Assembly (NCBI GenBank): GCA_020432105.1
Contig: JAGQGZ010000004.1
Coordinates: 1 to 43,060, forward strand
Length of the DNA: 43,060 nt
From: Dehalococcoidia bacterium
GTDB taxonomy: Bacteria > Chloroflexota > Dehalococcoidia > Tepidiformales > Tepidiformaceae
Direction: 5' to 3'
Within the stretch, counting starts at the first letter, position 1. Each line of letters opens with the position of its first letter. The notes under the pieces were generated by a model. The model worked only from the letters and a program-made list of their open reading frames with translations, was not told the origin of the DNA and searched no databases. The position numbers and the translations under genes were made by a program. Positions 10,711 to 38,114 of this stretch are shown here, piece after piece.

Positions 10711-10720
10711 GCCAGACCAA

Positions 10721-11479
10721 GTGCCGCTTTTTACTGTCGGTCAGAACCGGTTCGTTGCAGGGGTCTTCCTGAGCGTGGCTGTATTTGCGGCGAGCCTTGC
10801 CGTGGCCACGAGCCTGGCTGCTGAGGATCCGGGAAGGTCCAAGAGCTGGGACTACGTTGAGACTCAACACGACGAGTTGCGTTCAATTGCCGTGCAGGCC
10901 TGCCGCTTCAATGCGGAGAGCAACACGACAGTCCTCACGGTCCTGCGCCAGGACTATGCCCGCACTGCCGCTGCCTACGACAGCGGAGTGAGGGGCCGGT
11001 TATCAGCGGGACTTGCCAGGCCACAGGGCCTCGGCGTCGCCGCCCCGTCGTTTGAGTCATCGCTGGAGCGACTCTGCCCGGAGGTCGAGCGTGGCAACCT
11101 CAACGCTTCGCTTGAGCCGATACCGCCAGCATTCGTGGATTCGGGGACGGACATCCTGTCGTGGGACGAGCTGGACGCCGCAGCATTGGCGGCAGGCTGG
11201 CCCATGGAACCGGGCTGGTGGCCCGAGATGCGCCAGATCATCCAGTGCGAGAGCGGCCGGAACCGGTTCGCTTACAACGGGTCGGACCCAAACGGCGGCA
11301 GCTACGGGCTGACGCAACTCAACGGAACGCAACACTTCGATAAGTCTGGCGAGAGCTTCGACCTCCGCTTTGACCCGGTCGTGAACCTGCGAGTGGCGCT
11401 GTGGCTGCGAACGGTTCGCGGGCATTTCGGAGGCAGCGGAGGCTGGAAGATCTGCTCGGAGCGATACGGCATCCAGTAG
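10721..11479 (+). CDS. Exported lysozyme/transglycosylase-like protein
   Basis: 252 residues. An N-terminal hydrophobic stretch (FVAGVFLSVAVFAASLAVA, residues 11-29) followed by AED suggests export or membrane anchoring. Residues about 170-250 fit a lysozyme-like/SLT fold: catalytic-type Glu177 in IIQCESGRNRF, then GSYGLTQLNG and a closing GGWKICSERYG. It should cleave peptidoglycan at or outside the membrane. The central region is helical and of unknown role. The GTG start is 10 bases after the PAAR stop, so co-translation with the spike tip is likely. It may open the wall for the injection system or remodel it; a cargo role is less likely given the signal sequence. Confidence 0.7.
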   Translation: MPLFTVGQNRFVAGVFLSVAVFAASLAVATSLAAEDPGRSKSWDYVETQHDELRSIAVQACRFNAESNTTVLTVLRQDYARTAAAYDSGVRGRLSAGLARPQGLGVAAPSFESSLERLCPEVERGNLNASLEPIPPAFVDSGTDILSWDELDAAALAAGWPMEPGWWPEMRQIIQCESGRNRFAYNGSDPNGGSYGLTQLNGTQHFDKSGESFDLRFDPVVNLRVALWLRTVRGHFGGSGGWKICSERYGIQ

Positions 11480-11705
11480 CCAGGGCAGTTACCTTGCCGG
11501 GCGGTTCTTTGTTCTTACCACGTCGTTATGAAAATCCGGGACATCACGCGGTGATTACCGTTCGTATGATGCGCCGTGCTGGTCCCCTGCATGGGGAGAC
11601 GGCCTGAACCCTGACGGCATGAGCCGCAGGAAAGGGCCAGGGCATCGCCGGGAGAGCCTGTCGAGGGGCGTCCGGGGATGTGCCGGCGATGTGAGGTGTC
11701 TGCAA

Positions 11706-14498
11706 GTGGGGCGGCGTAGAGTGCGGCGGGGCCACAGTTGGCGAGTTGTGCTCGTCCTGGCGGCGCTTGCGATCGTTCTCGGTGTCGTGGGACAGGCCAA
11801 GCCTGAGCGCGCAGTTGCGGCGGGTGCGGGTGTCTTTGCCCTGGACAAGCCGGAGTATTTCGTGCAGGAAGGGGCCGCGGTCGGTGTGACGATCCTGCGT
11901 ACCGAGGGCACGACACTCACCAACGATGTGACTGTCACCCTCGAGCTTGAGGGCGGCACGGTGAACGAGGACTACCCGGCTTCGACCATTACGCAGCTAG
12001 CGACCTTCGTGAAGGGATCGAATCCCACGCAGGTGACGGTGTTCTTCCAGACGCTGAACCAGGCGCGGATAAGCCACAACACGGGCGAGATCCAGATCTT
12101 CCTGCGCAGCGTCAGTTCGGGCTCTATCGGGACGATCGACTCGGCACCGCTGACGATCTACGGGAACGGGGCGCCACGGGTTTTCAGCGTATCCCCTCGA
12201 AGTGCCTCGCCGGGCACCACCATCACCGTGCAGGGCGTCAACTTCATCACGAGCGGGACGACGCAAACATGCGTCCACGAAATCTTCTTCGAACCAGAGT
12301 TTGGTGGGGTTCCACCTGCACCGCTTGGAACGTTCACCGTGGATGCGCCCAACCGGCTCCGATTCACGCTTCCTGCTGCCGGCGGCCTTGAACCCTACAC
12401 AACGTACGACGTCCCCTATCACATACAGGTTGTTACCGCCCTGGATACATCACCGGACGGATCTTGCGTGAAGGACCTCAGCGAAACCGGAGCGAGTCTA
12501 CTCACCGACGACGACACGCTGGTCCCCGTTGACCCTGGCGATCCGACGGTGATTGCGCTAACGCCAAAGAGCGGCCCTACGTCGGGCGGAACCGCCGTTC
12601 GACTCTTCGGTTCCAATTTTGATGCGGACGTGTGCAGTCTTGGCGTTATGTTTGGCGGTGTACCCGCCCCCTCCTGCGTGGTGGTCAGCGCCACCGTAGT
12701 CGATGTCGTCACCCCGGCTCACGCCGTCGGCACCTTCAATGTCATCGTCAATAACGGAAGCGACACGAGTCCGCCGACACCGGAGAACCTGTTCACCTTC
12801 GCCGGGGCCCCGGTAATTACGTCGGTGACCCCGAACCTGGGGCCCAACACGGGGGGAACGTCGGTGACAATCGTGGGCTCGGGATTTGCGACGCCGGGCG
12901 GAACGATCACCGGCGTGAAGTTCGGGGGCGATAACGCGACCACATACACGATGGTGAACAACACCACGATCACTGCGGTTTCGCCGGTTCACCTGGATGG
13001 CGGGACGGTGCAGATCACGGTCGTGCATTCGCTCACTGGCGTAAGCGGATTCACGACCGCAGCCAACTTCACCTATGTCGTCGGCCCCCTGGTCCAGAAC
13101 CTCTCTCCGAATATCGGCTCACCATCGGGCGGGACGACGGTGACGATCAGTGGCGTGGGCTTTGCGCCGGGGGCGGTGGTGACCTTTGGGGGGGTCAACG
13201 CCCTGTTCGTGTTCGTGAGGAGCCAGACCCAGATCGAGGCGACGAGTCCTCCGGGCACGGGAAACGTACAGGTCATTGTGACGGTCGGCAGCACCTCGAG
13301 CCCGGTGAGTCCTGAGAGCGAATTCACCTATTCGGGACCGATCGTCCAGAACATCACACCCAACGCCGGGCCAACGGCCGGAGGGACAAAGGTACTCATC
13401 GAGGGCAACAACTTTACCCAGGCTGCGGTAGTGAAGTTCGGCCAGGTCGATGCGGCAGAGATGACCTATATCTCGCCAGCGATGATCGAGGCGACAGCCC
13501 CGGCATCGCCCAATGGCTTCGCCGAGGTGCACGTGACCATCACCACTCCATCGGGGACGAGCGCGACGAGTGAGCAATCGCTCTTCACCTATACCGATGG
13601 TCCAATCGTTGAAGGGGTGAACCCCCAGAAGGGCCCCCTCAGCGGCGGCACGATCGTCGTGATCACCGGCAAGAACTTCGACAACGGCGCCAAGGTGATG
13701 TTCGGCGCCACTGAGGCGCTGGCCTTCAACTTCAACAGCCAGACGCAGGTAACGGCACTGACGCCGCCTGTGGCGGAAGCCGGCGTTGTCGCCGTTCGAG
13801 TGACGACCGCGGTCGGGATCAGCCCCGTCAGCGAGCTATCGGAATTCCTCTACGAGTCGGGGCCGCCAGTTGTTGCTGCGGTGACACCCAACACCGGCAC
13901 GGTGTTTGGTGGTGAGACCGTGGTGATTTCTGGACGGGGATTCCTGGGGACGCAATGCCCCGGCGGTGTGATCTTCGGCACCGCGGAAGTGCCGAGTTGC
14001 ACGGTGATCAACGACACGACGATGACCATTGTGACCCCGGCGCAACCATCAGGAGCAGCGGTGGTGGTGGTCCAGACGGCCTACGGGTCGAGTGAGATCG
14101 TGGAGCTGTTTACCTACTTGAAGCCCGGCCAAACAGGACCGCCCGACGGTGGTGGCGGCGGTGGAGGCAGTGGTGGTGACGATGATGGCATCCCCGTGCC
14201 TCCAACCGGGAACGGGATTAGCTACACGCTTCAACCGACCTGGACACTGATTGTCTGGAGAGGTGCGGACGAGGTCCCCGTGCGCGATGCGCTTCAGAGC
14301 ACCAGCGGCCAGGACCTCAGTGCAATCGTCAGCGCCGTCTATACCTACGACCGGAGTCAACTGCGCTGGATTGGGTATTTCACCGGTGCTGAGGACATAC
14401 CGGGAGCCAACGATTTCACCGTGCTGAGCAAGGACCGTGTGTACTGGATTGCGACCACGGTAAACGTGCCCGTCACCTGGCAGACCGTCGACAACTGA
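11706..14498 (+). CDS. Secreted IPT/TIG-repeat protein with Calx-beta-like N-terminus
   Basis: I place the start at GTG 11706 because GAGGTG lies 7 bases upstream and it gives a compact signal peptide (short Arg-rich start, VVLVLAALAIVLGVVG, cleavage near AVAAG); a longer frame opens at ATG 11619. The mature protein begins with a Calx-beta-like segment (FALDKPEYFVQEGAAVGVTI). About seven IPT/TIG repeats follow, each opening like ITPNAGPTAGGTKVLIEGNNF. A Gly/Asp-rich linker leads to a C-terminal module (GISYTLQPTWTLIVWRGADE to the end) with Trp-rich strands. It has no sorting motif or anchor. A cell-surface or matrix adhesin role is likely. It lies between the lysozyme and FHA genes of the injection-system array. 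Confidence 0.8.
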   Translation: MGRRRVRRGHSWRVVLVLAALAIVLGVVGQAKPERAVAAGAGVFALDKPEYFVQEGAAVGVTILRTEGTTLTNDVTVTLELEGGTVNEDYPASTITQLATFVKGSNPTQVTVFFQTLNQARISHNTGEIQIFLRSVSSGSIGTIDSAPLTIYGNGAPRVFSVSPRSASPGTTITVQGVNFITSGTTQTCVHEIFFEPEFGGVPPAPLGTFTVDAPNRLRFTLPAAGGLEPYTTYDVPYHIQVVTALDTSPDGSCVKDLSETGASLLTDDDTLVPVDPGDPTVIALTPKSGPTSGGTAVRLFGSNFDADVCSLGVMFGGVPAPSCVVVSATVVDVVTPAHAVGTFNVIVNNGSDTSPPTPENLFTFAGAPVITSVTPNLGPNTGGTSVTIVGSGFATPGGTITGVKFGGDNATTYTMVNNTTITAVSPVHLDGGTVQITVVHSLTGVSGFTTAANFTYVVGPLVQNLSPNIGSPSGGTTVTISGVGFAPGAVVTFGGVNALFVFVRSQTQIEATSPPGTGNVQVIVTVGSTSSPVSPESEFTYSGPIVQNITPNAGPTAGGTKVLIEGNNFTQAAVVKFGQVDAAEMTYISPAMIEATAPASPNGFAEVHVTITTPSGTSATSEQSLFTYTDGPIVEGVNPQKGPLSGGTIVVITGKNFDNGAKVMFGATEALAFNFNSQTQVTALTPPVAEAGVVAVRVTTAVGISPVSELSEFLYESGPPVVAAVTPNTGTVFGGETVVISGRGFLGTQCPGGVIFGTAEVPSCTVINDTTMTIVTPAQPSGAAVVVVQTAYGSSEIVELFTYLKPGQTGPPDGGGGGGGSGGDDDGIPVPPTGNGISYTLQPTWTLIVWRGADEVPVRDALQSTSGQDLSAIVSAVYTYDRSQLRWIGYFTGAEDIPGANDFTVLSKDRVYWIATTVNVPVTWQTVDN

Positions 14499-14625: not shown

Positions 14626-17600
14626 GTGAGTTTTGGCGCGCTCCTTGTGACTGGTGCAGATGGCACGCAGCGGGAGATCGCGCTCGATTCCACCACGGCC
14701 CTCGTCGGTCGCTCCGCGGCCAACTCCATTGTCCTGGACGAAATTTCGATCGCGCGACGCCACGCCCGGATAACGGTCGACTCCGGCCGCCTCTTTGTCG
14801 AGGATCTCGGGTCGGCAACCGGCACGTTCATTAACGAGGAACGGGTCGAGCCCCATGTACCATCGCTGGTGAAACCGGGAGACGCACTCCGGTTCGGCGA
14901 GGTCGTCGCCTATTTCACCGATGCAATTGCTGCGGTGGAGGAACCTTCGTCTGAAGGCGGCGCCATCGTCTCGCGGGAGTTCGCTTCGACCGTGCGAGTT
15001 CTCCTGACTGCACCGGCTGCAGCCATCGTCCCCGGCGGCGAGCCCGTTACCGCGATGATGGCCGTAACGAACACGGGCCACGTCGTTGACGAGATTACCT
15101 TCGAGATCAGGGGGTTGGCCGCGCCCTGGGTCCACATGAGCCAGGCATCGGTGGTGTTGCTGCCGGGCGACACGCGGGAGGTTGGCTTCGCGATTCGGAT
15201 CCCGAGGGAGCCGGAAGCTTCCGCCGGTGTCCACGAGATCTCGGTGGTCGCGACCTCGCAGCAGACCGGCCGCGAAGCACTCGCTGCGGGCAGTATCCAG
15301 GTGTCGGAGTTCGAGGATACGGGGGTGGAGATCGGACCCCGGCGGGCACGGAAGAACTTCAAGGTCTTGCTGGCCAACCGCGGCAACAGCCCGGTGGCCT
15401 ATCAGCTCGCGGGCAGCGATGAAGAAGAGGCCTTCCGCTATCGCTTTGACGAGACCGACATCAGTCTGGTCCCGGGCGAAACGCGCGAGATAAAGCTCAG
15501 GATCAAACGGCCACGACGGTGGGTTGGGCATACGCATACGGCCCCGTTCAAGGTCATTGCCACTCCCCAGCATCGGAGCGGTGAGGCGCCGCAAGGCGAA
15601 GCACAGTTGCAGATTCGGCCGGTGTTTGGGTCTGCCAACTTCTCGCCGGCGACGATCATGCTCGTTTTGCTCGTGGTTGGAATTGGCGCCTACTTCTTCT
15701 GGCCGCGCGACGACGGCATCGGGCCGCGGAGTGCAGAAGCGGCATTCGATGGTGTCCACCTTTGTGACAAGTCCTCCGAAGAGCAGGAGGCCGCGGCCAC
15801 GGCAACAGAAGCGTCAGATGCCAATCAACCGGGTGAACCCGGATTCCAGGGCGCGGTGAGCGGTGGTCCCTTCTACGCGCAGAACGACCCCCAGTGGGCC
15901 GATGTGGAATACGCCCGGGCGAAGGATCCAACCTTCGGGCCCGACTGGTGTGGCTCCACCATTGCCCAGTGCGGCTGCGCGATGACCTCAGTCGCGACCG
16001 TGCTGGCGCTCTATTCGCTGGTCGAAATGCCGGATGGTGCGGACCTTTCGCCAGAGACGCTGAACGCCTGGTTCAATGGCAACGCTCGGCTGACGGAACG
16101 GGGCTGGGTGAGCCAGGGATACATCTATGGTGACGTGATCTGGACGGCGGCAAACCAGTTGTCGGCCGAGATGCACGCCATCGATCCGAAGTTCCCGACC
16201 ATTCGCTTTGTCCGCACAGGCAGTGGCTCCGAAGCCGAGATCCGGAGTGAGCTCGAGGCAGGGAGACCGATCATTCTCGAGGTGCCGGGGCACTGGATAG
16301 CCGCCGTGGGCATTGAGGAAGAGACAGGGCGGATCCTCATCAACGACCCCTTCTATCGTGACCGCACCCACCTGGACACGGCGTATCCGGACCTCGTGAA
16401 GAGCAGCGTCCTCTTCGAGCCATCGGACGACCTGAGTGCCGTAGTGTTCACAGCGCCAAGCGACGTGCGGATGCGGATCACCGACAAGCAGGGCCGCGTG
16501 GTGGGGACCCTGAACACCGGCGCCGCGGAGGACGCGGAGTCGGGAGCGGTTATCGGTATCCCCGGCGCGTCCTACAGCTCACGGCAGGCGTGGCGAGATC
16601 CGACTTGTATTATGTCTCCTCCTCCAGAGGACGCGGGGACAAACCAGATCATCCTCCCGGGCGGGGCTGACGATTACACGCTCGAGATCATCGACACGGC
16701 CGGCAAACCGGCGAGCGTTGCCGTGCATACGTACGGGCAAAACGGTGAGACCGGGATCAGCACGATCGAGACCGATAAGCCCGCCGTTGCCGAGGTGGCA
16801 ATCGCCGAAGATGGTTCCGGGGCGAAGGTGACTGTCCAGGAGGGCCGGCGCCCTACACCAGAACCAGAAGTGACGGCCCAAAACCAGGAAGAGGAGACGC
16901 CGGGGAGTGCCACGGCGTCGGTTAGTCCCACAGCAAGCGCCCCTACACCGACGCCGACACCGCCGCCGCTCGAAACCGCGCTCCAGCTACCGGCGGAGGC
17001 CGGCCAGGAGCGATTGGAGATCGCCAGCAACGAAGGGTTCTTCGTCGGCGACACGATCGTGATCGACCCGGGAACAGCGATCGAAGAGACGAACACGATC
17101 ACCGGTTTCGGCTCGTTCATCCTTGCCAGCCCCCTGCGCTTCTCGCACTCAGCGGGCGCGGTCATCGTCCGGATCAGGCAGGCACCCCCGAATCCCGATG
17201 GCTCGGCGCCACAGGGGCCACCGGAAGGCGAATCGCCACCGCTCCTTCCACCCGACAACGTGGGCGTCGGCTGCTCGACCCTCTACAACTCGAATCCGAA
17301 GAGGGCGACGGTGATCTGCGGCGCCACGATCGAGGGCGAGTTCACGACGATTCGCTGGACCTCTAACGGGACGATCATCAGCGAAGCGGCGAACAAAGAA
17401 AGCCTCTTCCTTTCGTTCACCGAGGATACAAGCACGACGATTGTGCTCACGGTGTGCAACATCACGATCTGCCGCTCCACGTCGGCGCTGGAGGCGATCC
17501 GTTTCCCGGTGGTCGCAGCCGCCGCAGGGGCACGCGGCGGCACTGGCGCGGGGCCAGGTCAGCCGGTACCACCACCGCCACCAACCCGGGGCATCGTGGT

Positions 17601-20600
17601 TTCCTGCGCTACCGGGTTCGACTCGCTGTCCGGCGTAGCAGTGGTCAACTGCATCGCCGTGTTCCCGGATGGAACGCCGTACACGTCCATTACGTGGTCG
17701 GCCCCAGGGGGAACCCCTCCAGGCAAGACGTCGCAGAGTGACACCTTCACGACGACAGTTCCCAATCCCGATACCGCACTTCGGATCACCGCGACGCTCT
17801 GCAATTTCAGTGACTGCGAAACCTCCGAGGTCTATGAACTCTCGTTCGGTTCGACGGTTGTGGAGCTTGCAACATTCCCATCCGGAACGGGCGACTACCC
17901 CCAGTTCCAGGAGATAACGCTGACGGCCACAGTCCGGGGGCCCTCGCCACCCGTGGGCGGCCAGGTGATATTCATGTCCGGCACGACCGAGCTCGGCCCT
18001 GCGGCGCTGATCCCTGCGGGCGACTTTGGATTCGCCTCCCTGACGGTTACTCCGAACAACGACCCTCAGCAGCGGATCGGCATCGACCTTGGGCCGCGAT
18101 CGCTCACGGCTCACTACACCGGTGGCGCCACCCTGTTCCCGGGCACTTCCGACGCGGTAAACATCAACATCGTGATGGGCAATCCCGACGACTGCGACTC
18201 CGTTGACAACGACAACGACCTATCGCTGGACGAGGACTGCGAACACGACGTCAACCCGAAGTCGGTGGGTGGCGGCACGGTCGTTAACGACCTGACCATT
18301 GCTGTTGGTACGGGATTGCCGATTGGATCTTCGGCGGTGGCGGCCCCGGGAGAGATCTTGACCTCCTACGCTACCGTGAACCGAACTGCGTACTGCCCCG
18401 GCTGTATTCGCCAGGTATACATGGCCCTGGCTGAGAACCCGACCGCAAACAGCCCTGCCACGGTCCCGGCGCAGGGCCCCGTGTGCCTGCTGTCCGCGGT
18501 GCTGTCCAGCGACCGGGTTATTTTCAACCAGTTCACGGCGCCGGACTTCCCGGGCGTCTACTACATCCGCCTCACCGGATCGCTGCAGTATTCGTGCGTC
18601 GTAGTCGGGGTCGGATCGCCCGCCACATCAGCCGGCAGGGTCGTTGTCCAATCAGACACGGCAACGGCCGTAACCAGCAGCATCTCTTCGAATGCATTTG
18701 GTTCCACGAGCCCGGTGACGTTCACGGCGACCGTGAGCCGCCTGCAGGGCGCCGCCGGCATCCCGGAAGGCCGAGTAGCGTTCACGGGAATCAGTGGAAT
18801 GAGTTGTACGATCGCCGGGAGCGCCGGTGTCCCGGCCAACAACAATGTGCCGATTGACCTCGAGGAGGGAAGCGCCTCCCTCGCGATAGATTGCGATACC
18901 TCGGGCCTGGCGGCAGGGCCATACAGTGTCGGAGCGGCGTTCACGGGGCGCCAGCAAGTCGACGCCGGAAACCCCAACAGCGGCAAGTTCTACGCCGACT
19001 CCACGGCTCCAAGCATCCCCTTCAACATCAATTACCCGGCGCCCCAGTTGAGCGCGACAGGCAACCCGCTATCGCCATCTTCGGTGACCGCTAATCCCAC
19101 ATCTGCTGTAAACCTGCAGATCACGGGTTCGAACTTCTTCAGCGGTGTGACGACCGTCGAGTTCGACCCGGACGGGCCAGGTGGCGTTGGCGCAACGCCG
19201 TTGACCACCTCATCGATAACGAACACGCAGATCCAGGCGACAATTCCAACGGCCCTGCTGACCACCGCGAATACGGCCACCGTGACGGTGCGAAATCCCT
19301 CTCCAGGTGGCGGTTCGGCGTCCGCGAACTTCACGATCAACAACCCGGTGCCCGGTGCGGGGAGCCTGAGCCCAACGAACACCAACGTGGCCGGCACAGC
19401 CTTCACGCTCACGGTGAATGGATCCAACTTCATTAGCGGCCGTTCGACCGTCAGGTGGGGGGCAAACAACGGGTCGGCGAATCGGGCGACGACTTTCGTG
19501 AGCAGTTCACAACTGACTGCCCAGATTCTCGCGACCGACATCGATACGGCCGGATCGTTCAATGTCTATGTGCATACGACAGGCCCGGGTGGCGGTGATG
19601 CGGGGCCATTGACGTTCACGGTCAACAAGGCAGCGACCTCGACCGGACTGAGCATCACCGGGAACCCTGCGGCACTCGGCGGCACCCTCACGTTTACCGC
19701 TACCATCAGCTCCGGGACGTCGGCAGGCTCAATTTCGGGGACGGTGAACTTCTGCGTGGCGGGTACGGGGCCCAATTGCTCGGGTGGAAACCTGCTCGGC
19801 ACGGATACTTCGATCTCGGGCGGACAGGCACAGATAACCCGCAACAACATCGGCGCCGGCAGCTACAACGCCACGGCGCACTATCTCGGCAATACCAACT
19901 ATGCCGCGTCAAGCGCGGCATCCACCGGATATTCGGTCAACAAGGCGAACGTGACGGTAAACCTGACGGCGAATCCGACAACGGGGCCTTACGGGACGCT
20001 GGTTACGCTGACCGCCGACGTGAACGACACGGTCTCGGGCTTCACGCCCACCGGCACCGTCACCTTCCGGCACTCCCCATCTGATTCGACATGTAGCGCC
20101 GGAACCCTGCTCGGGACGGACACCATCGATGGCTCGGCAACGGGCGAGACGACCTCGACTGTCATCCCAGCAGGCCTCCCGGCCAATGCGATCTGCGTGC
20201 GCTACGAAGGCGACACAAACTTCAACGCCGACGCGGATACAGCGACGGTGACGATCACGGCCAACACGACGACAACGTCCATCACCCAGCCATCGGCCGG
20301 TGCCAAGAACTTTGGTGAGACCATCACGTTCTCGGCGAACGTGACCTCGGCTGTCAATCCTCCTCCGGGGAGCGGCGATGGCCAGGTCCAGTTCCTCTAT
20401 AACACTGGAGGCACCGACGTCCTCATCGCGACTGCCTCCAAGACGGGCAGTTCGTGGACCACATCGACCACGACACTGGGCGTGGGCAGCTACAACGTCT
20501 TCGCAAAGTTCGTCCCCACAGCAGGGGAATACTCGCAGAGCCAGTCGACGACGGTGGCGATCACGGTGAATGCATCGTCTACGACAACGACGATGACCTC

Positions 20601-21495
20601 ACCGGCCAATGCAAGCTCCCACACCTGGGGGGCGAACATCACCTGGACGGCAACCGTTTCGCCGACGACGGCGAATGGGACTGTGACGTTCTACCAGGCC
20701 GGTGGAGCGGTGCCGATCGCTATCACGACAGCGACGGTCTCCGGAGGAACGGCGTCGACAATCGCCCCGGCCCCGGCAAGCATGCCCGCTTCCGGAACGG
20801 CATACACGGTGTTCGCGGCGTTCTCCCCGTCAAACACGAACTTTGCGAGTTCGCAATCACTGAATCGCACAGTGACGATTACTCCGGCAGCAACGTCGAC
20901 GTCGCTCTCTGCTTCGCCGAATCCGGTTGTCAGTGGGAGTGCCACCACCCTCACGGCCACCGTAACCTCGAGCGTGGCGGGAACTATCACCGGGACCGTG
21001 AACTTCTGTGTCGACGGGACGGGCCCTAACTGCACGGGCGGAAACCTGCTTGGGACGGACACAACCATCGTGGCCGGAGTGGCCTCTGCCGGATGGACGC
21101 CCACGTCGGCCGGCACGCCCGTGGTGCGAGCCTACTACCTGGGTGGGGGGAACTACGGAGCGTCCTCGGGAGCGGTAACCGTCACCGTGAACAATCCCGT
21201 GCCCACTATTAGTGACGTGAATCCAGGCACGGTGGCGAGCCCGGGTGCAGCCACTGTGATATCCATCGATGGGACAGGCTTCGCGGCAGGGGCGACGGTG
21301 TCCTTCGATGCCGATGGGGCGGGGACAGGTGCGACCCCCCAGACGCTGTCGGGAGCCGTGGTGGTGAGTCCGACGCAGATCACGGTGACGATACCCGCGA
21401 ACCTGCTGACGACCGCCGGCACCGCCCACATCCTGGTGACCAACCCGACACCGGGCGGCGGGACGAGCGGCACGTTTGACTTCGTCATCACATAA
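14626..21495 (+). CDS. Giant FHA - membrane - C39-like peptidase - Ig-repeat protein
   Basis: 2289 residues. FHA domain at about 1-100 (LVGRSAANS, SIARRHARI, DLGSATGTF). Two Ig/NEW3-like domains run to about 330. One membrane segment lies near 340-362 (IMLVLLVVGIGAYFFW). A C39_2-like cysteine peptidase domain starts near 414, with probable Cys451 (CGCAMTS), His556 (PGHWIAAVG) and Asp574 (ILINDPF). Next come a conserved WRDPTCIMSPPP module, Thr/Pro linkers, two Cys-containing Ig-like domains and a calcium-type Asp/Asn motif near 1190 (CDSVDNDNDLSLDEDC). Then about 1000 residues of Big_3-like and IPT-like repeats follow. Predicted topology is FHA inside, peptidase and repeats outside. FHA domains bind phosphothreonine; partner unknown. 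It is the longer paralog of the next gene. Confidence 0.85.
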   Translation: MSFGALLVTGADGTQREIALDSTTALVGRSAANSIVLDEISIARRHARITVDSGRLFVEDLGSATGTFINEERVEPHVPSLVKPGDALRFGEVVAYFTDAIAAVEEPSSEGGAIVSREFASTVRVLLTAPAAAIVPGGEPVTAMMAVTNTGHVVDEITFEIRGLAAPWVHMSQASVVLLPGDTREVGFAIRIPREPEASAGVHEISVVATSQQTGREALAAGSIQVSEFEDTGVEIGPRRARKNFKVLLANRGNSPVAYQLAGSDEEEAFRYRFDETDISLVPGETREIKLRIKRPRRWVGHTHTAPFKVIATPQHRSGEAPQGEAQLQIRPVFGSANFSPATIMLVLLVVGIGAYFFWPRDDGIGPRSAEAAFDGVHLCDKSSEEQEAAATATEASDANQPGEPGFQGAVSGGPFYAQNDPQWADVEYARAKDPTFGPDWCGSTIAQCGCAMTSVATVLALYSLVEMPDGADLSPETLNAWFNGNARLTERGWVSQGYIYGDVIWTAANQLSAEMHAIDPKFPTIRFVRTGSGSEAEIRSELEAGRPIILEVPGHWIAAVGIEEETGRILINDPFYRDRTHLDTAYPDLVKSSVLFEPSDDLSAVVFTAPSDVRMRITDKQGRVVGTLNTGAAEDAESGAVIGIPGASYSSRQAWRDPTCIMSPPPEDAGTNQIILPGGADDYTLEIIDTAGKPASVAVHTYGQNGETGISTIETDKPAVAEVAIAEDGSGAKVTVQEGRRPTPEPEVTAQNQEEETPGSATASVSPTASAPTPTPTPPPLETALQLPAEAGQERLEIASNEGFFVGDTIVIDPGTAIEETNTITGFGSFILASPLRFSHSAGAVIVRIRQAPPNPDGSAPQGPPEGESPPLLPPDNVGVGCSTLYNSNPKRATVICGATIEGEFTTIRWTSNGTIISEAANKESLFLSFTEDTSTTIVLTVCNITICRSTSALEAIRFPVVAAAAGARGGTGAGPGQPVPPPPPTRGIVVSCATGFDSLSGVAVVNCIAVFPDGTPYTSITWSAPGGTPPGKTSQSDTFTTTVPNPDTALRITATLCNFSDCETSEVYELSFGSTVVELATFPSGTGDYPQFQEITLTATVRGPSPPVGGQVIFMSGTTELGPAALIPAGDFGFASLTVTPNNDPQQRIGIDLGPRSLTAHYTGGATLFPGTSDAVNINIVMGNPDDCDSVDNDNDLSLDEDCEHDVNPKSVGGGTVVNDLTIAVGTGLPIGSSAVAAPGEILTSYATVNRTAYCPGCIRQVYMALAENPTANSPATVPAQGPVCLLSAVLSSDRVIFNQFTAPDFPGVYYIRLTGSLQYSCVVVGVGSPATSAGRVVVQSDTATAVTSSISSNAFGSTSPVTFTATVSRLQGAAGIPEGRVAFTGISGMSCTIAGSAGVPANNNVPIDLEEGSASLAIDCDTSGLAAGPYSVGAAFTGRQQVDAGNPNSGKFYADSTAPSIPFNINYPAPQLSATGNPLSPSSVTANPTSAVNLQITGSNFFSGVTTVEFDPDGPGGVGATPLTTSSITNTQIQATIPTALLTTANTATVTVRNPSPGGGSASANFTINNPVPGAGSLSPTNTNVAGTAFTLTVNGSNFISGRSTVRWGANNGSANRATTFVSSSQLTAQILATDIDTAGSFNVYVHTTGPGGGDAGPLTFTVNKAATSTGLSITGNPAALGGTLTFTATISSGTSAGSISGTVNFCVAGTGPNCSGGNLLGTDTSISGGQAQITRNNIGAGSYNATAHYLGNTNYAASSAASTGYSVNKANVTVNLTANPTTGPYGTLVTLTADVNDTVSGFTPTGTVTFRHSPSDSTCSAGTLLGTDTIDGSATGETTSTVIPAGLPANAICVRYEGDTNFNADADTATVTITANTTTTSITQPSAGAKNFGETITFSANVTSAVNPPPGSGDGQVQFLYNTGGTDVLIATASKTGSSWTTSTTTLGVGSYNVFAKFVPTAGEYSQSQSTTVAITVNASSTTTTMTSPANASSHTWGANITWTATVSPTTANGTVTFYQAGGAVPIAITTATVSGGTASTIAPAPASMPASGTAYTVFAAFSPSNTNFASSQSLNRTVTITPAATSTSLSASPNPVVSGSATTLTATVTSSVAGTITGTVNFCVDGTGPNCTGGNLLGTDTTIVAGVASAGWTPTSAGTPVVRAYYLGGGNYGASSGAVTVTVNNPVPTISDVNPGTVASPGAATVISIDGTGFAAGATVSFDADGAGTGATPQTLSGAVVVSPTQITVTIPANLLTTAGTAHILVTNPTPGGGTSGTFDFVIT
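19741..21063 (+). repeat. Diverged Ig-module repeat within the giant FHA protein
   Basis: Two units, 19741-19809 and 20995-21063, are about 1.25 kb apart and clearly related at DNA and protein level. Both encode GTVNFCV-x-GTGPNC-x-GGNLLGTDT, with a conserved Cys pair inside Big_3-like domains. This indicates internal duplication of Ig modules. Confidence 0.8.
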
Positions 21496-21572
21496 CTCAT
21501 TGGGAAGTATTCGACGCCGGTGACACCGTTTCAGCGTCGCGCGTATCCTCTGCGGACAGGGCGGAGGCGTCA

Positions 21573-24500
21573 TTGGCTGATGTAGCGGCGAGGTTCGGTT
21601 CGCTGGTCGTGGCAGATACGGATGGTCGATCGCGGGAGTACGCGATCGACCTGGCTTCGACGACGATCGGGCGGGCGGAAGGCAGCGCGATCGTCATCGA
21701 CGATCTATCGATATCGCGCCGACACGCGCGGCTCACGATCGAGGACGGCAGGCTCCTGGTCGAGGACCTTGGATCGGCAGCAGGGACGTTTGTTGCGGGG
21801 CGGGCCATACCGCCGCATACACCGAGCCTGGTGGAACCGGGCGATGAGGTGCGGTTTGGCGAGGTCGCGGGCTGGTTCATCGCCGCAACGGATTCCCCGA
21901 GCGAGGACAGGCCGGTCGATACGGGCGACCCGATCGCGGAAGCCCCGGCGACGATCCGGGCAACGCTGCAACCGCCGCTAGAACCGATCGAACCGGGGAC
22001 GACGCCCGGAATCGCGACACTGCAGGTGCAGAACCGTGGCCGCATCGTCGACCAACTCGATATCGAGGTCCGGGGTATTCCGGCCGAATGGGTGAGAGTG
22101 GGCACGCCTGCTCCGGTCCTCGTGCCGAACGACCAGGCGACCGTGAGCATCGTTATCCAGCCGCCACGGAGCTCCGAGGCACGGGCGGGTGATTACGACA
22201 TCTCGGTTGTCGTCACCTCGCGGGAAACGGGCCGTGAGGTGCTCACGGCAGCGAGGATCACCCTCCAGCCTTTCGAAAACACGCAGATGCTGCTGCACCC
22301 GATGCGGAGCAGCAAGCGGTTCGACCTGATTGCCCGCAACCTGGGAAATGCGCCGCTGACGTACGACATCGCCGGGCGCGATGACGAAGAAGCGTTCTAC
22401 TTCAACTTTGGTGAAGACACGGTGCACCTGGAGCCCGGTGAAGAGCGCCGGATCGCGATGTCGGTGCGGAGCAAGACGGCGCGACTCATCGGCGCGACCC
22501 AGACAGCACCGATCGAGGTGCGCGCGGTGCCGGTCGGCGGGGGCCTGGTGGAAGCGCGGGCACTGGGACAGTTGCTTGTCCGCCCGCCAATGCAGCGCTT
22601 CGTGTTTCCGGCCTTCCTCCTGTTCATGGTGGGCGTTGCGGTGCTCGCGGCCGAGGCCTACATTCTGCGGCCGGTCTGGCCCTTCGTTGACGACCGGTCG
22701 GTCTTCGTGCTCGACCGCTTCCTGGTGTGGCTTGCACTCGGGGCCGTTGGTGGGGCGCTGCTATCGCCGATCCGGCCGCTGTGGACGCCTGACGACGACT
22801 GGCCAAGGATGACGTTCGCGGTCTTCGTGGCGCTCCTCCTGGTGCTATCGGCCGCGAGCACGATCGACTACTACTTCGCCCCCGGCTGGCCGTTTGCGAC
22901 GATGGACGGCCGTTCAACCCTGCATGAGACCCTGTTGGCGCTCTCCTGGGGAGTCGGCGCTGCCCTTGTCCTTCACTTCTTGCGGCTTGTGTGGTGGGCG
23001 CAGGGCGACAGAACGGCACTGGCAGCCCAGACGTTTTCGCTGTTCACGATGGTGGGTGCAATTATCGGAGGGGTCTCGTACGTCGCTATCGATGTGTGGC
23101 CGGATGACGGCGAACCGACGCGGGCCGAACTTGAGGCGTATTACGCGGGCGTCCACATGTGCGACCCCGACGGCGGCCCGGCGGATGGGGCTTCGGATGC
23201 GGGTGGACGGGACTCAGTCACTGACGACACCAACCCAACGGAGTCGCCGCTGTTTGCCCAGAACAATGGTCTCTGGGCGAAGGCGCCCTACGCTCGGGCC
23301 GACGACCCGGACACGGGACCGGGAGCCTGTGGCGAAAGCATCGAGCAATGTGGCTGCGTCCTGACAACGGTGGCGACGGTAATGGCGATGTACGAGCTAC
23401 TGGAGCTTCCCGACGGCACGGAGCTAACGCCGGAATCACTCAACGCGTGGTTCAACGCGGACGCGACACGGACGGCGAGCGGATGGGTGAGCCGGGGGTA
23501 TGTATTCGGCGACGTCGTCTGGACAGCCGTGAACGAACTCTCAGGTGAGATCGCGAGGCGAAATCCAGGGACGGAGCCACTCCGCTTCTCACGGACCGGC
23601 ACGGGTTCGAACGAGGAAATTCTGACTGAGTTGCGTTCCGGGCGGCCGATCGTCCTCGAGATCCCGGGGCACTGGATCGTCGCGTACAAGATCGACGGCG
23701 GCGACATCCTTATCAACGACCCTTACTACCGGAACAGGACGACGCTGGCCGACTACACCGACAACGGCGTGCCAATCCTGAGCAGTGTGCTCTTCGAACA
23801 CAGCGATGATCTGAGCGCGGTGGTGATCACGGTGCCACGCAATGCACGGGTGCGGGTGACCGACAACGAGGGCCGGGTGGTGGGCACGCTTGACCTGGAA
23901 GAGGACGCCGATACGGCAGCAATGAATGCGCAGGAGGGAATCGGCGGCGCCCAGTACAACACACGCCGGGCCTGGCGCGATCCAACCTGTGTGATGTCGC
24001 CGCCGCCGCTTGACGCGGGCACAAACCAGATCATCCTGCCCGGCACCGCCGCGCAGTACGAGATCGATGTGCGCGGACCCGAAGGCGAGGAGATGGCGGT
24101 CGCGATCCACGAGTACGACGCCAACGGCGTGTCGAAGCTGACCACGCAGGAGTTCAGCGACCAGTCGCAAACAGGCGTTGAGTACGACCCGGCCCAGCCG
24201 AACGCCACCGTGACCGTAATCCCGCCGACCACTACGTCGACACCAGACCCCGGGGCCGGAGGGGGAGGCGGTGCGGAAGTGACACCAACGGCAACACCGG
24301 AGGAGACGGCCACCCCGCAAGACACGCCGACGCCCGTGCCGACACCCACGGCGACGCCACCGATTCCACCATCGAACGTGGCTGTTGCCTGCGAAGTGGA
24401 ATACGAGGACATGCCGAAACGGGCGACGGTGACCTGCAAGGGCACGGTGGAAGGCAACTACACGCAGGCCACCTTCCGGATCAACGGCGTTGTGGCCGCC

Positions 24501-24965
24501 GCCGATGGGCTGGTCATGGATGCGGTGTTCGACTTCAACACGACCCTCAATGTGCAGCTCAATGCATGCAATACGACGGCCTGTGCCGCATCGACGGCGG
24601 CAGTGGCGGTGGAGTTCCCGGCGGTGAGCCCAACACCAACGCCCACACCCACGGCGACGTTGCCCGGGGGGCCGACATCAACTCCTACTCCTCCCGCGCC
24701 GGCGATCGACGCTAGCGTCGTTTGCAATGCGGTTTCGGACGGCAGCCAGTGGCACGTCGGCTGCGCTGCGTCCTTCAACGGCCAGTGGACGTCAATCCTC
24801 TGGTCGGCGCCGGGGGCCACACCGAATTCAGCGGAGACGACTACGAAGAACTGGCAGTTCACCGTGCCCGGCGCGGGGCTGCCGGTTACGGTTGCCGCGA
24901 CCGTCTGCAACTTCGACACGTGCACGGGCGCCCCGATAGTCATTGTGAACCCGGAGGGGCCGTAG
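21573..24965 (+). CDS. FHA - five membrane segments - C39-like peptidase - Ig protein
   Basis: 1130 residues from TTG 21573, with GGAGG six bases upstream. The layout follows the preceding gene: FHA at about 5-110 (TIGRAEGSA, SISRRHARL, DLGSAAGTF) and two Ig/NEW3-like domains. Then come five membrane segments, near 342-364, 382-400, 412-433, 450-472 and 487-508, where the paralog has one. The C39_2-like domain has probable Cys595 (CGCVLTT), His700 (PGHWIVAYK) and Asp716 (ILINDPY), followed by WRDPTCVMSPPP. Thr/Pro linkers and two Ig-like domains end the protein. An odd number of membrane segments again puts the FHA inside and the peptidase outside. Peptidase C39 relatives cut after Gly-Gly leaders or act as general cysteine peptidases; substrate unknown. 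The ATPase gene follows with no gap. Confidence 0.87.
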   Translation: MADVAARFGSLVVADTDGRSREYAIDLASTTIGRAEGSAIVIDDLSISRRHARLTIEDGRLLVEDLGSAAGTFVAGRAIPPHTPSLVEPGDEVRFGEVAGWFIAATDSPSEDRPVDTGDPIAEAPATIRATLQPPLEPIEPGTTPGIATLQVQNRGRIVDQLDIEVRGIPAEWVRVGTPAPVLVPNDQATVSIVIQPPRSSEARAGDYDISVVVTSRETGREVLTAARITLQPFENTQMLLHPMRSSKRFDLIARNLGNAPLTYDIAGRDDEEAFYFNFGEDTVHLEPGEERRIAMSVRSKTARLIGATQTAPIEVRAVPVGGGLVEARALGQLLVRPPMQRFVFPAFLLFMVGVAVLAAEAYILRPVWPFVDDRSVFVLDRFLVWLALGAVGGALLSPIRPLWTPDDDWPRMTFAVFVALLLVLSAASTIDYYFAPGWPFATMDGRSTLHETLLALSWGVGAALVLHFLRLVWWAQGDRTALAAQTFSLFTMVGAIIGGVSYVAIDVWPDDGEPTRAELEAYYAGVHMCDPDGGPADGASDAGGRDSVTDDTNPTESPLFAQNNGLWAKAPYARADDPDTGPGACGESIEQCGCVLTTVATVMAMYELLELPDGTELTPESLNAWFNADATRTASGWVSRGYVFGDVVWTAVNELSGEIARRNPGTEPLRFSRTGTGSNEEILTELRSGRPIVLEIPGHWIVAYKIDGGDILINDPYYRNRTTLADYTDNGVPILSSVLFEHSDDLSAVVITVPRNARVRVTDNEGRVVGTLDLEEDADTAAMNAQEGIGGAQYNTRRAWRDPTCVMSPPPLDAGTNQIILPGTAAQYEIDVRGPEGEEMAVAIHEYDANGVSKLTTQEFSDQSQTGVEYDPAQPNATVTVIPPTTTSTPDPGAGGGGGAEVTPTATPEETATPQDTPTPVPTPTATPPIPPSNVAVACEVEYEDMPKRATVTCKGTVEGNYTQATFRINGVVAAADGLVMDAVFDFNTTLNVQLNACNTTACAASTAAVAVEFPAVSPTPTPTPTATLPGGPTSTPTPPAPAIDASVVCNAVSDGSQWHVGCAASFNGQWTSILWSAPGATPNSAETTTKNWQFTVPGAGLPVTVAATVCNFDTCTGAPIVIVNPEGP

Positions 24966-27056
24966 GTGCGGGAAACGGCGGCAATGACGGCAGCGATTAA
25001 CGATGTCGTCCGCCAGATGCTTGCGCGGGAAGTGGAGCACATGCGCGCCCAGGGCATTGCGGTCGGCGACGACGACTACCGTGGGCTTTACACATCCGAT
25101 GGCGAAGCCGCTCGCCTGTTGGAAGCAGACCACGCGGAGCCCGACAGCGGCGTTGCCGAGCTGGCAAGACAGCTGGTGGAGGTAGGCAGGCGGTATCCCC
25201 GAGGGATGCGGCTTGCGGCACTACCAGGCCTCAGCGACTTTGACGTGGGGACGATGCTGTTCTGCTTCGCCACCGAGGTGGACCTCGGACTCGAGCGCCT
25301 CGTCGGATACGTCCAGGACGATGTCACCAAGCGGCGGCCGCGGGTCGAGATGATCGAGCGACTGTTTGGCTGCAACGAGGAAGCGGGTGCGGGGGCGCGT
25401 CACTTCGGACCCGAGGCCCCACTCATCCGCCTCGGCCTTGTTGCACTTGGCGCCGAGCCAGGGCAGCCGCATACACCGTTGTCGGCGGAGTACCTCTGGC
25501 TGACTCCGCGAGTCGCAGCCTACCTCCAGGGCGACAACCAGGTGGCCGTCGAACTTGTGGACCATGCCACTCTCCTGCCACGGGAAGAGGTGATGCAGGC
25601 GGCACTTGGAGGGGCGAGGCTCGAAACCGTCGAACGCCTTCGCGACCTGCCTGCGACGCAACTCCGGCCACCGGTCGTCGCGTTGAGCGGTCCGGACGCG
25701 AGAGAGCGTGAACTGGCTGCGCAGGCGGTGGCAGCGGGCGCTGATCTCGGGATCCTTCGCGTGCAGTTCGCACCGGTGGTTGCGGAACGGGGCGTGAAGG
25801 ATGCGTACCGACTGGCCGCGAGAGAGGCTTATTTGCAGGGGACTGCCCTGGCGCTGGATGGGCTTGATGGTGTGAGCCTTGAGGATCGCCAGAGCCTGCT
25901 TGCCACAATTCGCGCGGAGAGCGTGGCAGACCTGGTATTCCTGCTCTCGAACGCGCCGATCGCGTGGCCGGGGATTTCGGTGGCACTGGAGGCCCTCGAT
26001 ATCGAGTGGCTACTTACGCGCTGGGAACAGTTCCTGGAGCCACATGCGACGACGACCGATGCTGAAGCGATTGCCCGCCTGGCCGGAAAGTTCAAGCTAG
26101 GGAGCGGCCAAATCGGTGGCGCGGTCGATGTAGCGGCGGGTATTGCGAGGACCCGCGACCCCCGCCAGCCGACCATAACGATCGATGACCTTTATGCAGG
26201 CGCGCGGACCCAGTCGACACCGATCCTGAACGAGCTCGCCAAGAAGATCACGCCCCATTACTCCTGGGACGACCTGGTGCTGCCAGCCGACCCGCGTGCC
26301 CAGTTGCGAGAAATGAGTCTCTTCGTGGAGCACCGGCACCAGGTGTACGACACGTGGGGGATGGGCGGTCGGTTGGCCATGGGGAAGGGCCTGATGTCGC
26401 TATTCGCGGGAAACTCGGGCACGGGAAAGACCATGGCGGCGGATGTGCTGGCGGGTGAACTGGGTCTCGACCTCTACAAGATCGACCTCTCCGGCGTCGT
26501 GAGTAAGTACATTGGCGAAACAGAAAAGAACCTCGGGACGATTTTCCAGGAGGCGGAGACTTCGAACGCGATCCTGTTCTTCGACGAGGCGGATGCGCTG
26601 TTTGGAAAACGCTCCGAGGTGAAGGACGCTCACGACCGCTACGCCAATATCGAGACGGCCTACCTGCTCCAGAAGATGGAGGAGTATTCGGGTGTAGTGA
26701 TCCTTGCGACCAACTTGAAAATGAACCTGGATGAGGCGTTCTTGAGGCGACTGCACTTTGTTGTCGATTTCCCGATGCCGGAGGAGGACGACCGTCTGCG
26801 CATCTGGCGGACGACCATCCCATCCGAACTACCGCTGGCGGACGATGTCGACCTCGCTTTCCTGGCGCGACAGCTGAAGATCGCGGGCGGGAACATCCGC
26901 AACATCGTTCTCGCTGCCGCCTTCTTCGCTGCTGATGAGCAGACGCCAGTGACCATGGCCCACCTGGTTCGAGCGACGCGCCGGGAGTACCAGAAGCTGG
27001 GCCGGATGGTTACCGAGGCCGAATTCGGTGACTACATCACGGTGCTCAGGGATTAG
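24966..27056 (+). CDS. AAA+ ATPase of the contractile injection system (CIS15-like)
   Basis: 696 residues. The C-terminal AAA+ module has Walker A GNSGTGKT (482-489) and Walker B ILFFDE (536-541). Arg-finger/sensor residues lie in the NLDEAFLRRLHFVVDFPMP segment, and an AAA lid follows. The first 400 residues resemble the N-terminal and degenerate ATPase regions of eCIS-associated ATPases (Afp15/Pvc15), whose exact task in assembly or loading is unsettled. The GTG start is the base right after the preceding stop, with GGAGGGG eight bases upstream; an ATG at 24984 is possible. Its coupling to the FHA-C39 gene suggests joint expression of a membrane module and the particle's ATPase. Cytoplasmic. 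Confidence 0.9.
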   Translation: MRETAAMTAAINDVVRQMLAREVEHMRAQGIAVGDDDYRGLYTSDGEAARLLEADHAEPDSGVAELARQLVEVGRRYPRGMRLAALPGLSDFDVGTMLFCFATEVDLGLERLVGYVQDDVTKRRPRVEMIERLFGCNEEAGAGARHFGPEAPLIRLGLVALGAEPGQPHTPLSAEYLWLTPRVAAYLQGDNQVAVELVDHATLLPREEVMQAALGGARLETVERLRDLPATQLRPPVVALSGPDARERELAAQAVAAGADLGILRVQFAPVVAERGVKDAYRLAAREAYLQGTALALDGLDGVSLEDRQSLLATIRAESVADLVFLLSNAPIAWPGISVALEALDIEWLLTRWEQFLEPHATTTDAEAIARLAGKFKLGSGQIGGAVDVAAGIARTRDPRQPTITIDDLYAGARTQSTPILNELAKKITPHYSWDDLVLPADPRAQLREMSLFVEHRHQVYDTWGMGGRLAMGKGLMSLFAGNSGTGKTMAADVLAGELGLDLYKIDLSGVVSKYIGETEKNLGTIFQEAETSNAILFFDEADALFGKRSEVKDAHDRYANIETAYLLQKMEEYSGVVILATNLKMNLDEAFLRRLHFVVDFPMPEEDDRLRIWRTTIPSELPLADDVDLAFLARQLKIAGGNIRNIVLAAAFFAADEQTPVTMAHLVRATRREYQKLGRMVTEAEFGDYITVLRD

Positions 27057-27121: not shown

Positions 27122-27802
27122 ATGGCCGATAACCGACTAGCCCAACTGATGAAACACGACGATTCCTCTCGGAAGCAGGGGGAGGACTCGATGGCCGAAG
27201 CCGTCCGTCAGCACCCGTTGGTCGACATGCAGAAGGCGGTAGGAAACACCGCGGTTGCCCGGATGATCGCCATGCGCCAGGCGGAAGAGGAGGAGATGCA
27301 GGCGAAGCATGATCCGGCCCTCCAACGCCAGGAGGAGGAAGAAGAGATGCAGGCGAAGCATGACGATGGCGCACCGGTTGTCGGCCTTGAAGGTGGTGAG
27401 GTGGGAGAGGAGATCTCCAGCAGCATCTCGGCCGAGCGGGGCAGCGGCTCCGGCCTTTCCAGTCCCGTTCGGGAGAAGATGGAAGGCGCCTTTGGCACAT
27501 CCTTCGCTGATGTACGCGTCCACGCAGACTCGACGGCTGATGCCCTGAATCGCCAGGTGACAGCCAAGGCGTTCACGACCGGGAACGACATCTTTCTTCG
27601 CAACGACAGCAGCGCGGGTGACGAGAAACTGATGGCACATGAGCTGACGCATGTGGTGCAGCAGCGTTCGATGAGTGGAGGCGGAGGCGGGAGCATGCAG
27701 GTTGGCGCGGCCGGCAGTGAGCATGAACAGGAGGCCGATGCCGTCGCCCACGAGGTGACGTCGGGTGGCCAGGTCGCACGCCACGGCGAGGAACAGTCAT
27801 AG
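27122..27802 (+). CDS. DUF4157 (eCIS core) zinc-peptidase-like protein
   Basis: 226 residues. Residues about 113-185 are a clear DUF4157 domain: SPVREKMEGAFGTSFADVRVH, AKAFTTGNDIFL and MAHELTHVVQQ. The HExxH zinc motif is at 173-177, and a possible third ligand sits in EHEQEADAVAHE. DUF4157 is strongly associated with eCIS loci, usually at the start of a larger toxin. Here no toxin domain follows, so it may be a particle-associated peptidase or a loading/processing factor. The N-terminal half is charged and disordered, with a 17-residue repeat (EEEEMQAKHD). A QKAVGNTAVARM segment typical of DUF4157 proteins is present. Ribosome-binding site GGAGGTG. CIS16 follows. Confidence 0.9.
   Translation: MADNRLAQLMKHDDSSRKQGEDSMAEAVRQHPLVDMQKAVGNTAVARMIAMRQAEEEEMQAKHDPALQRQEEEEEMQAKHDDGAPVVGLEGGEVGEEISSSISAERGSGSGLSSPVREKMEGAFGTSFADVRVHADSTADALNRQVTAKAFTTGNDIFLRNDSSAGDEKLMAHELTHVVQQRSMSGGGGGSMQVGAAGSEHEQEADAVAHEVTSGGQVARHGEEQS
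27293..27363 (+). repeat. Tandem repeat of 51 bases in the DUF4157 gene
   Basis: A 20-base block occurs identically at 27293-27312 and 27344-27363, 51 bases (17 codons) apart. It encodes the core of the repeated EEEEMQAKHD peptide, so the repeat unit is 17 residues. Confidence 0.9.
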
Positions 27803-27837: not shown

Positions 27838-28653
27838 ATGTTCAACGATGTCGATGAGTCACTGCGCGCGCTGCTGATCGAAGATATGCCCATTGAGCGG
27901 AACGAGATCGACATCTCGTTTGACCGCCCGACGCGTGAATGGTCCGGCCGCCTTTCGAAGCCGACTCTCAATCTCTTTCTCATGGATATGCGCGAGCATC
28001 CGATGCTGCGCAACGATGTCCCGAAGTTAGTGCGCCAGGCCGACGGAACCGGGGTACAGCACATTCCAGCCCGCCGGATTGACCTGACGTACGTGGTGAC
28101 CGCCTGGGCAAGGGAGGCCTCGGACGAGCACCGGATACTGTCGCGGGTGCTGGCAACGATGTTCCGGCGGGACACAATCCCGGAAGAGCACCTTGCGGGC
28201 CAACTTCAGCACGCTGATAAGAATGTGCTGGCCCGGATCATGCCGCCGGATCACCTGACAAAGCCGGCGGATTTCTGGGGAGTGATGGACAACGAGCTCC
28301 ACTCCAACCTCACGTGGGTAATCACGGCGCCATTGAACGCATTTGCCCCGATCGAGGGTCCCCTGGTCCGCACTGCTGAATTCCGGTTCACCCGACCCGA
28401 CTCCGACTGGATGGAGAACACCTTCCACATCGGTGGCCGAGTACATGTTGCGGATGACCCCGAGGCCGGGATCGGTGGTGTCCTTATCGAGGTGTTGGGG
28501 ACAACGCTGCGCGACACCACTGGAGACGATGGGGCCTTCCTGTTCCAGGGCATGCCGGCGGGAGAACGAACCTGGCGGATCACGCCGCCGGAGGCAGAGG
28601 CACGGGAACAGACCATTCAAGTCCCGTCTGAGAACTACGACATCCACGTTTAA
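27838..28653 (+). CDS. DUF4255 protein (CIS16-like) with a regulatory-like beta-sandwich tail
   Basis: 271 residues. The N-terminal ~190 residues fit DUF4255, the Pvc16/Afp16 family: MFNDVDESLRALL, KPTLNLFLMDMREHP, RIDLTYVVTAWAREASDEHR and LWGVMD-like FWGVMDNELHSNL. Afp16 ends tube and sheath polymerisation at the top of the particle. Residues about 198-271 form a carboxypeptidase-regulatory-like module (GGVLIEVLGTTLRDTTGDDGAFLF), an addition some DUF4255 proteins carry. The upstream ribosome-binding site is weak. It is the first clearly structural gene of the particle; the sheath gene follows after 119 bases that are richer in A+T but contain no convincing promoter. Confidence 0.9.
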   Translation: MFNDVDESLRALLIEDMPIERNEIDISFDRPTREWSGRLSKPTLNLFLMDMREHPMLRNDVPKLVRQADGTGVQHIPARRIDLTYVVTAWAREASDEHRILSRVLATMFRRDTIPEEHLAGQLQHADKNVLARIMPPDHLTKPADFWGVMDNELHSNLTWVITAPLNAFAPIEGPLVRTAEFRFTRPDSDWMENTFHIGGRVHVADDPEAGIGGVLIEVLGTTLRDTTGDDGAFLFQGMPAGERTWRITPPEAEAREQTIQVPSENYDIHV

Positions 28654-30784: not shown

Positions 30785-30792
30785 CTGTCCAA

Positions 30793-30856
30793 ACCCCATC
30801 GCGGGGTCGACGGTACTACCAGGACGAGACGGAGTCGCGAGCCTCCGTCTCGTCTT
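30793..30856 (+). terminator. Double hairpin after sheath-tube genes (likely partial terminator)
   Basis: A small stem ACCCC/GGGGT (30793-30797 with 30803-30807) is followed by a perfect 12-bp stem. Its arms are GACGAGACGGAG (30823-30834) and CTCCGTCTCGTC (30843-30854), with an 8-base loop. The T-tract (TCTTCATCT) is broken, so termination is probably partial. The position after the two most abundant structural proteins suits a stoichiometry attenuator. Confidence 0.7.
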
Positions 30857-30873
30857 CATCTCAGGGATAGGCG

Positions 30874-31409: not shown

Positions 31410-31411
31410 CG

Positions 31412-35923: not shown

Positions 35924-35926
35924 CCG

Positions 35927-38111: not shown

Positions 38112-38114
38112 GAG

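Follow-up and report, generated by a model that had tools for sequence, protein, structure and literature searches.

How does a contractile injection system (CIS) that is kept inside the cell dock and fire at the cell's own membrane? The question is open outside Streptomyces and, according to PMC12998442, Roseiflexus lacks close homologs of the Streptomyces gene cisA. It is raised here by a 43,060-nucleotide stretch of Dehalococcoidia DNA (the window), one contig (JAGQGZ010000004.1) of a 3.08-Mb assembly, in which three paralogous genes, P1, P2 and P3, border a complete CIS at 24966-40669. By sequence, each encodes a forkhead-associated (FHA) domain and a pair of immunoglobulin-like (Ig) domains predicted to be cytoplasmic, followed by a single membrane region and, outside, a head that varies between the proteins (C39/Ig-like or SH3). 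We propose, and consider rather probable, that P1, P2 and P3 belong to a dedicated family of CIS membrane adaptors or sensors that does what CisA does in Streptomyces. This proposal draws on the position of the genes in the operon, their co-occurrence with the CIS sheath, the conserved gene order, the pairing of kinase and FHA-bearing baseplate protein in relatives, and the use of a cisA-like slot. It is also supported by the report of intracellular CIS in Roseiflexus and by the lack of a tail-fibre family in the window's cluster.

The gene cluster and its relatives

Sheath, tube, hub, spike, gp25, baseplate J, Tail_P2_I, AAA ATPase and cap proteins were all recognized above their Pfam cut-offs, placing the cluster in the extracellular CIS (eCIS) lineage. 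The window sheath is 54% identical to a Streptomyces CIS sheath over 99% of its length and Pfam scans of the cluster found no tail-fibre families; type IId (cytoplasmic) CIS would be marked by close kinship to the Streptomyces/Roseiflexus CIS and by the lack of a fibre, and a placement there is tentative. Membership in a CIS puts the FHA domain in a different light. The original prediction had taken P1 and P2 for an inside-out signalling or processing unit. The CIS context and the co-occurrence with CIS lead us to reject a free-standing signalling pair, and a processing role of the pair is unproven.

Co-occurrence was assessed in 38 genomes of the order, 15 with a CIS sheath and 23 without. 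Strong matches to the FHA-Ig-Ig part were found in 14 of the sheath genomes and in none of the others (Fisher test, P = 2e-9), and the C39-WRDPTC module was found in 13/15 and 0/23, respectively (P = 2e-8). The gene order is conserved as TIG, P1, P2, ATPase, eCIS_core, cap, sheath, tube, 122-aa protein, tube, large protein, hub, spike, gp25, J, P2_I and (P3), with one C39 protein in place of P1 and P2 in some relatives.

The analysis was extended to 400 Chloroflexota genomes, 86 of them with a sheath, and 33 clusters were annotated. Matches covering the Ig-Ig part occur in 54 of the 86 sheath genomes and in 6 of the 314 others (P = 3e-37), and 46 of the 48 matches on sheath contigs lie within 30 kb of the sheath. 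In the annotated clusters the scaffold consists of Ig-Ig, one transmembrane segment (TM) almost everywhere and a variable outside part, sometimes with an FHA domain or a Ser/Thr kinase in front. The C39 head is limited in this sample to the order of the window and one relative of another family.

Thirteen Chloroflexota clusters encode a kinase-FHA-Ig-Ig-TM protein together with an N-terminal FHA domain on Tail_P2_I. This baseplate FHA is present in 13/13 clusters with the kinase and in 0/18 without it. In the sheath tree, several of the 'no kinase' labels belong to short contigs on which the slot is not visible. The plasmid CIS of Deinococcus aquaticus and D. psychrotolerans have the same two proteins; that of D. 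grandis has the kinase-FHA-Ig-Ig-TM protein, and its annotated Tail_P2_I open reading frame (ORF) is short. Two Tail_P2_I proteins (L128:13536-14846 in G153 and L129:14221-15186 in G209) carry, where others have FHA, an Ig-like part that matches the Ig-Ig model. The Roseiflexus-like clusters L096, L097 and L099 hold four to six consecutive FHA/kinase-Ig-Ig paralogs, one apparently without a TM.

In the mechanism that we propose, CIS particles would assemble and float freely until the cytoplasmic FHA-Ig part brings them to the cytoplasmic membrane from within; the same part would allow firing once the outside head has reported a signal or opened the wall. In the Roseiflexus/Deinococcus-type relatives, the kinase on the scaffold and the FHA domain on Tail_P2_I make it probable that docking is gated by phosphothreonine. 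It is quite possible, though we would not yet call it probable, that in this Chloroflexota/Deinococcota clade a transmembrane Ser/Thr kinase with an outside sensor and its own FHA domain phosphorylates a threonine which the FHA domain of Tail_P2_I reads, as a built-in switch for docking and firing. The FHA-C39 pair of the window would then be a kinase-free branch with a peptidase-fold head.

Architecture and predicted topology of P1 and P2

The features of the window are collected in Table 1. P1 and P2 had been described as adjacent paralogs that run from FHA through two Ig-like domains, a membrane part and a C39 domain to a WRDPTC module, and this is borne out by the ORFs, Pfam, the models and 52% identity over the C39-WRDPTC part. 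FHA scores above the Pfam cut-off in both (E = 2e-17) and its fold is supported by Pfam and the structure model, despite changes in the pocket. The Ig-like pair between FHA and membrane in P2 was modelled by AlphaFold with high confidence. Both proteins were also said to end in two Ig-like domains, which is about right for P2, whereas P1 continues into a long repeat array with seven Big_3_5 repeats (Pfam) and ~1,200 further residues. Separate phylogenies of the FHA-Ig part and of the C39-module part were built, as suggested with the original prediction; their many weak or open forks leave the date and number of the P1/P2 duplications unsettled.

Table 1 Features of the window, with positions in the 43,060-nucleotide stretch
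Feature	Positions	Strand	Description
P1	14626..21495	+	2289 aa; FHA, Ig, Ig, one TM, C39 fold, WRDPTC module, Ig pair, long Ig-like/Big_3_5 array
P1 FHA domain	14704..14898	+	Ser of SxxH replaced by Ala, Asn of NG by Thr
P1 paired Ig-like domains	14980..15639	+	FixG_C/NEW3-like
P1 single TM	15640..15708	+	aa 339-361; predicted free energy (dG) -1.6
P1 C39 fold and WRDPTC Ig-like module	15754..16830	+	aa 377-735
P2	21573..24965	+	1130 aa; FHA, Ig, Ig, five TM, C39 fold, WRDPTC module, Ig pair
P2 FHA domain	21660..21860	+	Asn of NG replaced by Ala
P2 five-helix membrane part	22593..23093	+	not seen among relatives
P2 C39 fold and WRDPTC module	23148..24242	+	aa 526-890
P3, third paralog	40666..42141	-	FHA, Ig, Ig, one TM, SH3; convergent to the end of the CIS operon
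DUF4280 PAAR-like protein, SLT-like transglycosylase (N-terminal TM), TIG-repeat surface protein	10321..14498	+	upstream of P1
CIS AAA+ ATPase with WHD domain	24966..27056	+	P2 ends at 24965, directly before
eCIS_core (PF13699) protein	27122..27802	+	
Pvc16_N cap/terminator protein	27838..28653	+	
Contractile sheath	28773..30302	+	
Tube protein, conserved 122-aa protein, second tube protein	30317..31864	+	
1125-aa Pro/Ala/Thr-rich protein	31871..35248	+	no Pfam match
CIS_tube/LysM hub and gpD/gpV spike proteins	35258..37639	+	
gp25, baseplate J and Tail_P2_I baseplate proteins	37704..40669	+	Tail_P2_I without FHA

The DGpred formula gives one membrane segment for P1 and five for P2. In the AlphaFold2 model of P2, built with 27 homologs, the helices span residues 341-365, 374-400, 410-435, 449-477 and 482-507; the first is well supported and the other four are of low confidence. 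Two of the five segments are marginal (0.9 and 1.2 kcal/mol), and a DGpred cut-off of 1.0 kcal/mol leaves four and a cut-off of 0 leaves three. The figure of five draws jointly on hydropathy, on the structure model and on how relatives are predicted to cross the membrane. The one-versus-five count of the original prediction agrees with DGpred at the less strict cut-off and, for P2, with the AlphaFold model. The odd parity with FHA inside and C39 outside is likewise supported as a predicted topology: a gain of an even number of helices leaves the C39 domain outside. Four cysteines of this domain, besides the catalytic one, are invariant among 19 aligned homologs, which would fit disulfides outside the cell. 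It had also been supposed that the pair diverged by its membrane part. Of the 18 C39 homologs besides P1 and P2, all but one show just a single confident TM, and the remaining one adds a marginal segment; the five-helix P2 is thus not an old divergence of the pair, and an ancient one-versus-five split was rejected. Judged from these sequences, crossing the membrane once is the rule, and a five-helix part belongs to P2 of the source genome alone.

The C39 assignment comes from different evidence in the two proteins. Peptidase_C39_2 matches P1 with 31 bits (cut-off 24), and Pfam gives no such match for P2. The AlphaFold model of residues 526-890 of P2 has a C39 peptidase fold (mean predicted local distance difference test score 74). 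Its structural matches are the peptidase domains of PCAT1 (Z 9.9) and ComA (9.8), then, both at 9.7, a C39-like protein and the pseudomurein endoisopeptidase PeiR, with the surface-layer protease Cwp84 weaker. The second structural aligner alone placed the model clearly; Foldseek returned nothing at E below 0.001, and the C39 profile had no meaningful match among the sequences in PDB. The catalytic residues named beforehand, Cys451/His556/Asp574 in P1 and Cys595/His700/Asp716 in P2, are at those positions, and together with the papain-like fold they make up the features of the C39 family, as read from sequence and model. Both an enzyme acting at the cell envelope and a sensor would fit the data as a role for this head. 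A related protein in G305, from another family of the class (L091:1583-3511), combines C39-WRDPTC with an N-terminal TM and has no FHA; it lies on a short contig without visible CIS genes, and that genome does have a sheath.

Several neighbouring genes have counterparts in relatives. The 122-aa protein (30874-31242) is found in nearly every CIS cluster examined and has no Pfam or NCBIfam match. The slot of the 1125-aa protein, between the second tube protein and the LysM hub, holds proteins of 1,100-1,700 aa in relatives, and in other Chloroflexota a protein with an eCIS_core domain (for example, L098:12445-15060).

The FHA pocket and alternative roles

Almost all of the FHA domains retain Gly-Arg and His. 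The NG motif has its Asn in 29/34 of the kinase and baseplate FHA domains vs 1/19 of the FHA domains of C39 proteins; among the order's remaining membrane proteins with FHA the figure is 4/11. It is replaced in P1, P2 and P3, and in P1 the Ser is replaced as well, leaving the phosphothreonine-binding motif incomplete. In the type VI secretion system (T6SS), Fha binds the phosphothreonine of TssL via its Arg and Ser (PMC3953482), and in PrgH of the type III secretion system (T3SS) the equivalent positions are poorly conserved and mutating them left secretion unaffected (PMC3635987). With a cluster that lacks a kinase, a Tail_P2_I that lacks FHA and pocket residues that are replaced, the phospho-gate is probably reduced in the window, with FHA acting, by analogy with PrgH, as a phospho-independent docking domain. 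The window's FHA domains could instead still read phosphothreonine set by a kinase encoded elsewhere in the genome. P2 and P3 retain the FHA Arg and Ser, and C122:7964-21555 of the source genome (L001, L002, L005, L006, L115, L116) has several FHA genes with two strong Ser/Thr kinase matches, a possible source of a kinase acting on CIS proteins. Given the near-absence of the NG Asn from C39-protein FHA domains, the loss of the P1 Ser and the lack of a Ser/Thr kinase in the window, we regard this alternative as doubtful.

Other explanations start from the outside part. The C39 heads could be cysteine peptidases or isopeptidases that cut the wall or surface layer for release or firing of the CIS, with FHA-Ig merely coupling them to assembly. 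The model matches PeiR nearly as well as PCAT1 and ComA, an SLT-like transglycosylase gene lies upstream, and nearly all of the 19 aligned C39 homologs, which share an invariant Gln and Asp, retain the predicted catalytic Cys and His. However, P2 of G400 has Ser for the Cys and Tyr for the His, so catalysis appears dispensable in at least one P2, and other CIS clusters place SH3, PLAT, Calx-beta or DUF7452 on the same scaffold where this order has C39. We think it unlikely that envelope opening is the role of the C39 heads. That P1 and P2 are surface adhesins or sensors which happen to lie beside CIS genes is highly improbable: the long Ig-like arrays of P1 do resemble surface proteins, but the strict co-occurrence with the sheath, the conserved position in the cluster and the direct adjacency to the CIS ATPase speak against it.

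Several observations weigh against the adaptor reading that we prefer. Tail_P2_I of the window is without FHA, and the FHA domain of P1 is without two residues that usually contact the phosphopeptide. One sheath genome of the order, G405 (a fragmented assembly), has no FHA match. In the phylum, 32 of the 86 sheath genomes have no detectable Ig-Ig match; 22 of them have weaker sheath matches and are perhaps phages or tailocins. The kinase-bearing systems fall mostly in one clade of the sheath tree, making the 13/13 vs 0/18 contrast weak as independent evidence. More generally, all of the genome comparisons share phylogeny and their P values overstate independence.

Comparison with known systems

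What the adaptor reading offers is a named candidate family, whose position in the cluster and Ig-Ig-TM core are conserved and whose outside heads can be exchanged. In the relatives, including Deinococcus species, the kinase and the baseplate FHA would link phosphothreonine signalling, known for T6SS, to another CIS lineage, and their arrangement suggests how a CIS could dock on the cell's own membrane. The docking question is now directly testable by gene removal. We found no description of FHA domains or Ser/Thr kinases with CIS in the open-licence literature (subscription papers and preprints being outside its scope), and the text of PMC12998442 names neither FHA nor kinase genes.

PrgH/YscD/MxiG of T3SS (PMC3635987) resemble P1-P3 in their cytoplasmic FHA fold, one TM and folded outside domains, and their phosphopeptide residues are lost as in P1. 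The Pfam model Yop-YscD_cpl also matches above its cut-off. The outside part differs, being C39 and Ig-like instead of ring-building domains, and no other T3SS gene was found among the window proteins scanned, so P1-P3 are not assigned to PrgH/YscD.

The threonine phosphorylation pathway of T6SS (PpkA, Fha/TagH; PMC3953482) is closer to the relatives than to the window, in that a Ser/Thr kinase and FHA serve a contractile machine at a membrane. In contrast to T6SS, the relatives are phage-tail-like CIS in which no T6SS membrane complex genes were seen, a single bitopic protein combines kinase and FHA, and a further FHA domain belongs to the baseplate itself. The TagH model TIGR03354 gives P1 27.0 and P2 32.4 bits, far below its cut-off of 120.25.

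The nearest parallel is CisA of Streptomyces coelicolor (SCO4242), a bitopic protein whose N-terminus is inside and whose C-terminal domain is outside; its gene directly follows the baseplate genes on their 3' side (PMC12237407). Like CisA, P1-P3 are membrane proteins of a CIS cluster without clear tail fibres. An N-in/C-out orientation is presumed for them from the prediction of a single TM in P1 and P3 and of five in P2 with parity kept. They differ in that the cytoplasmic part of CisA is largely unstructured whereas theirs carries FHA and an Ig pair, in the location of P1 and P2, which precede the ATPase gene, and in the five segments of P2. In the plasmid CIS region of Streptomyces cadmiisoli, the FHA, Ig-Ig, kinase and C39 models match nothing; an ORF just 3' of its baseplate genes (L140:18477-20870), which has zinc ribbons, a single TM and a terminal part like F5/8 type C, is possibly the CisA of that system. 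P3 and the kinase-FHA proteins likewise use the slot 3' of the baseplate genes. According to PMC12998442, the CIS of Roseiflexus and Deinococcota are intracellular. The Roseiflexus-like cluster of G166 (whose identity is our guess) encodes an FHA-Tail_P2_I and several FHA/kinase-Ig-Ig-TM proteins, and in clusters of the Roseiflexus/Deinococcota type it is these proteins that occupy the cisA-like slot.

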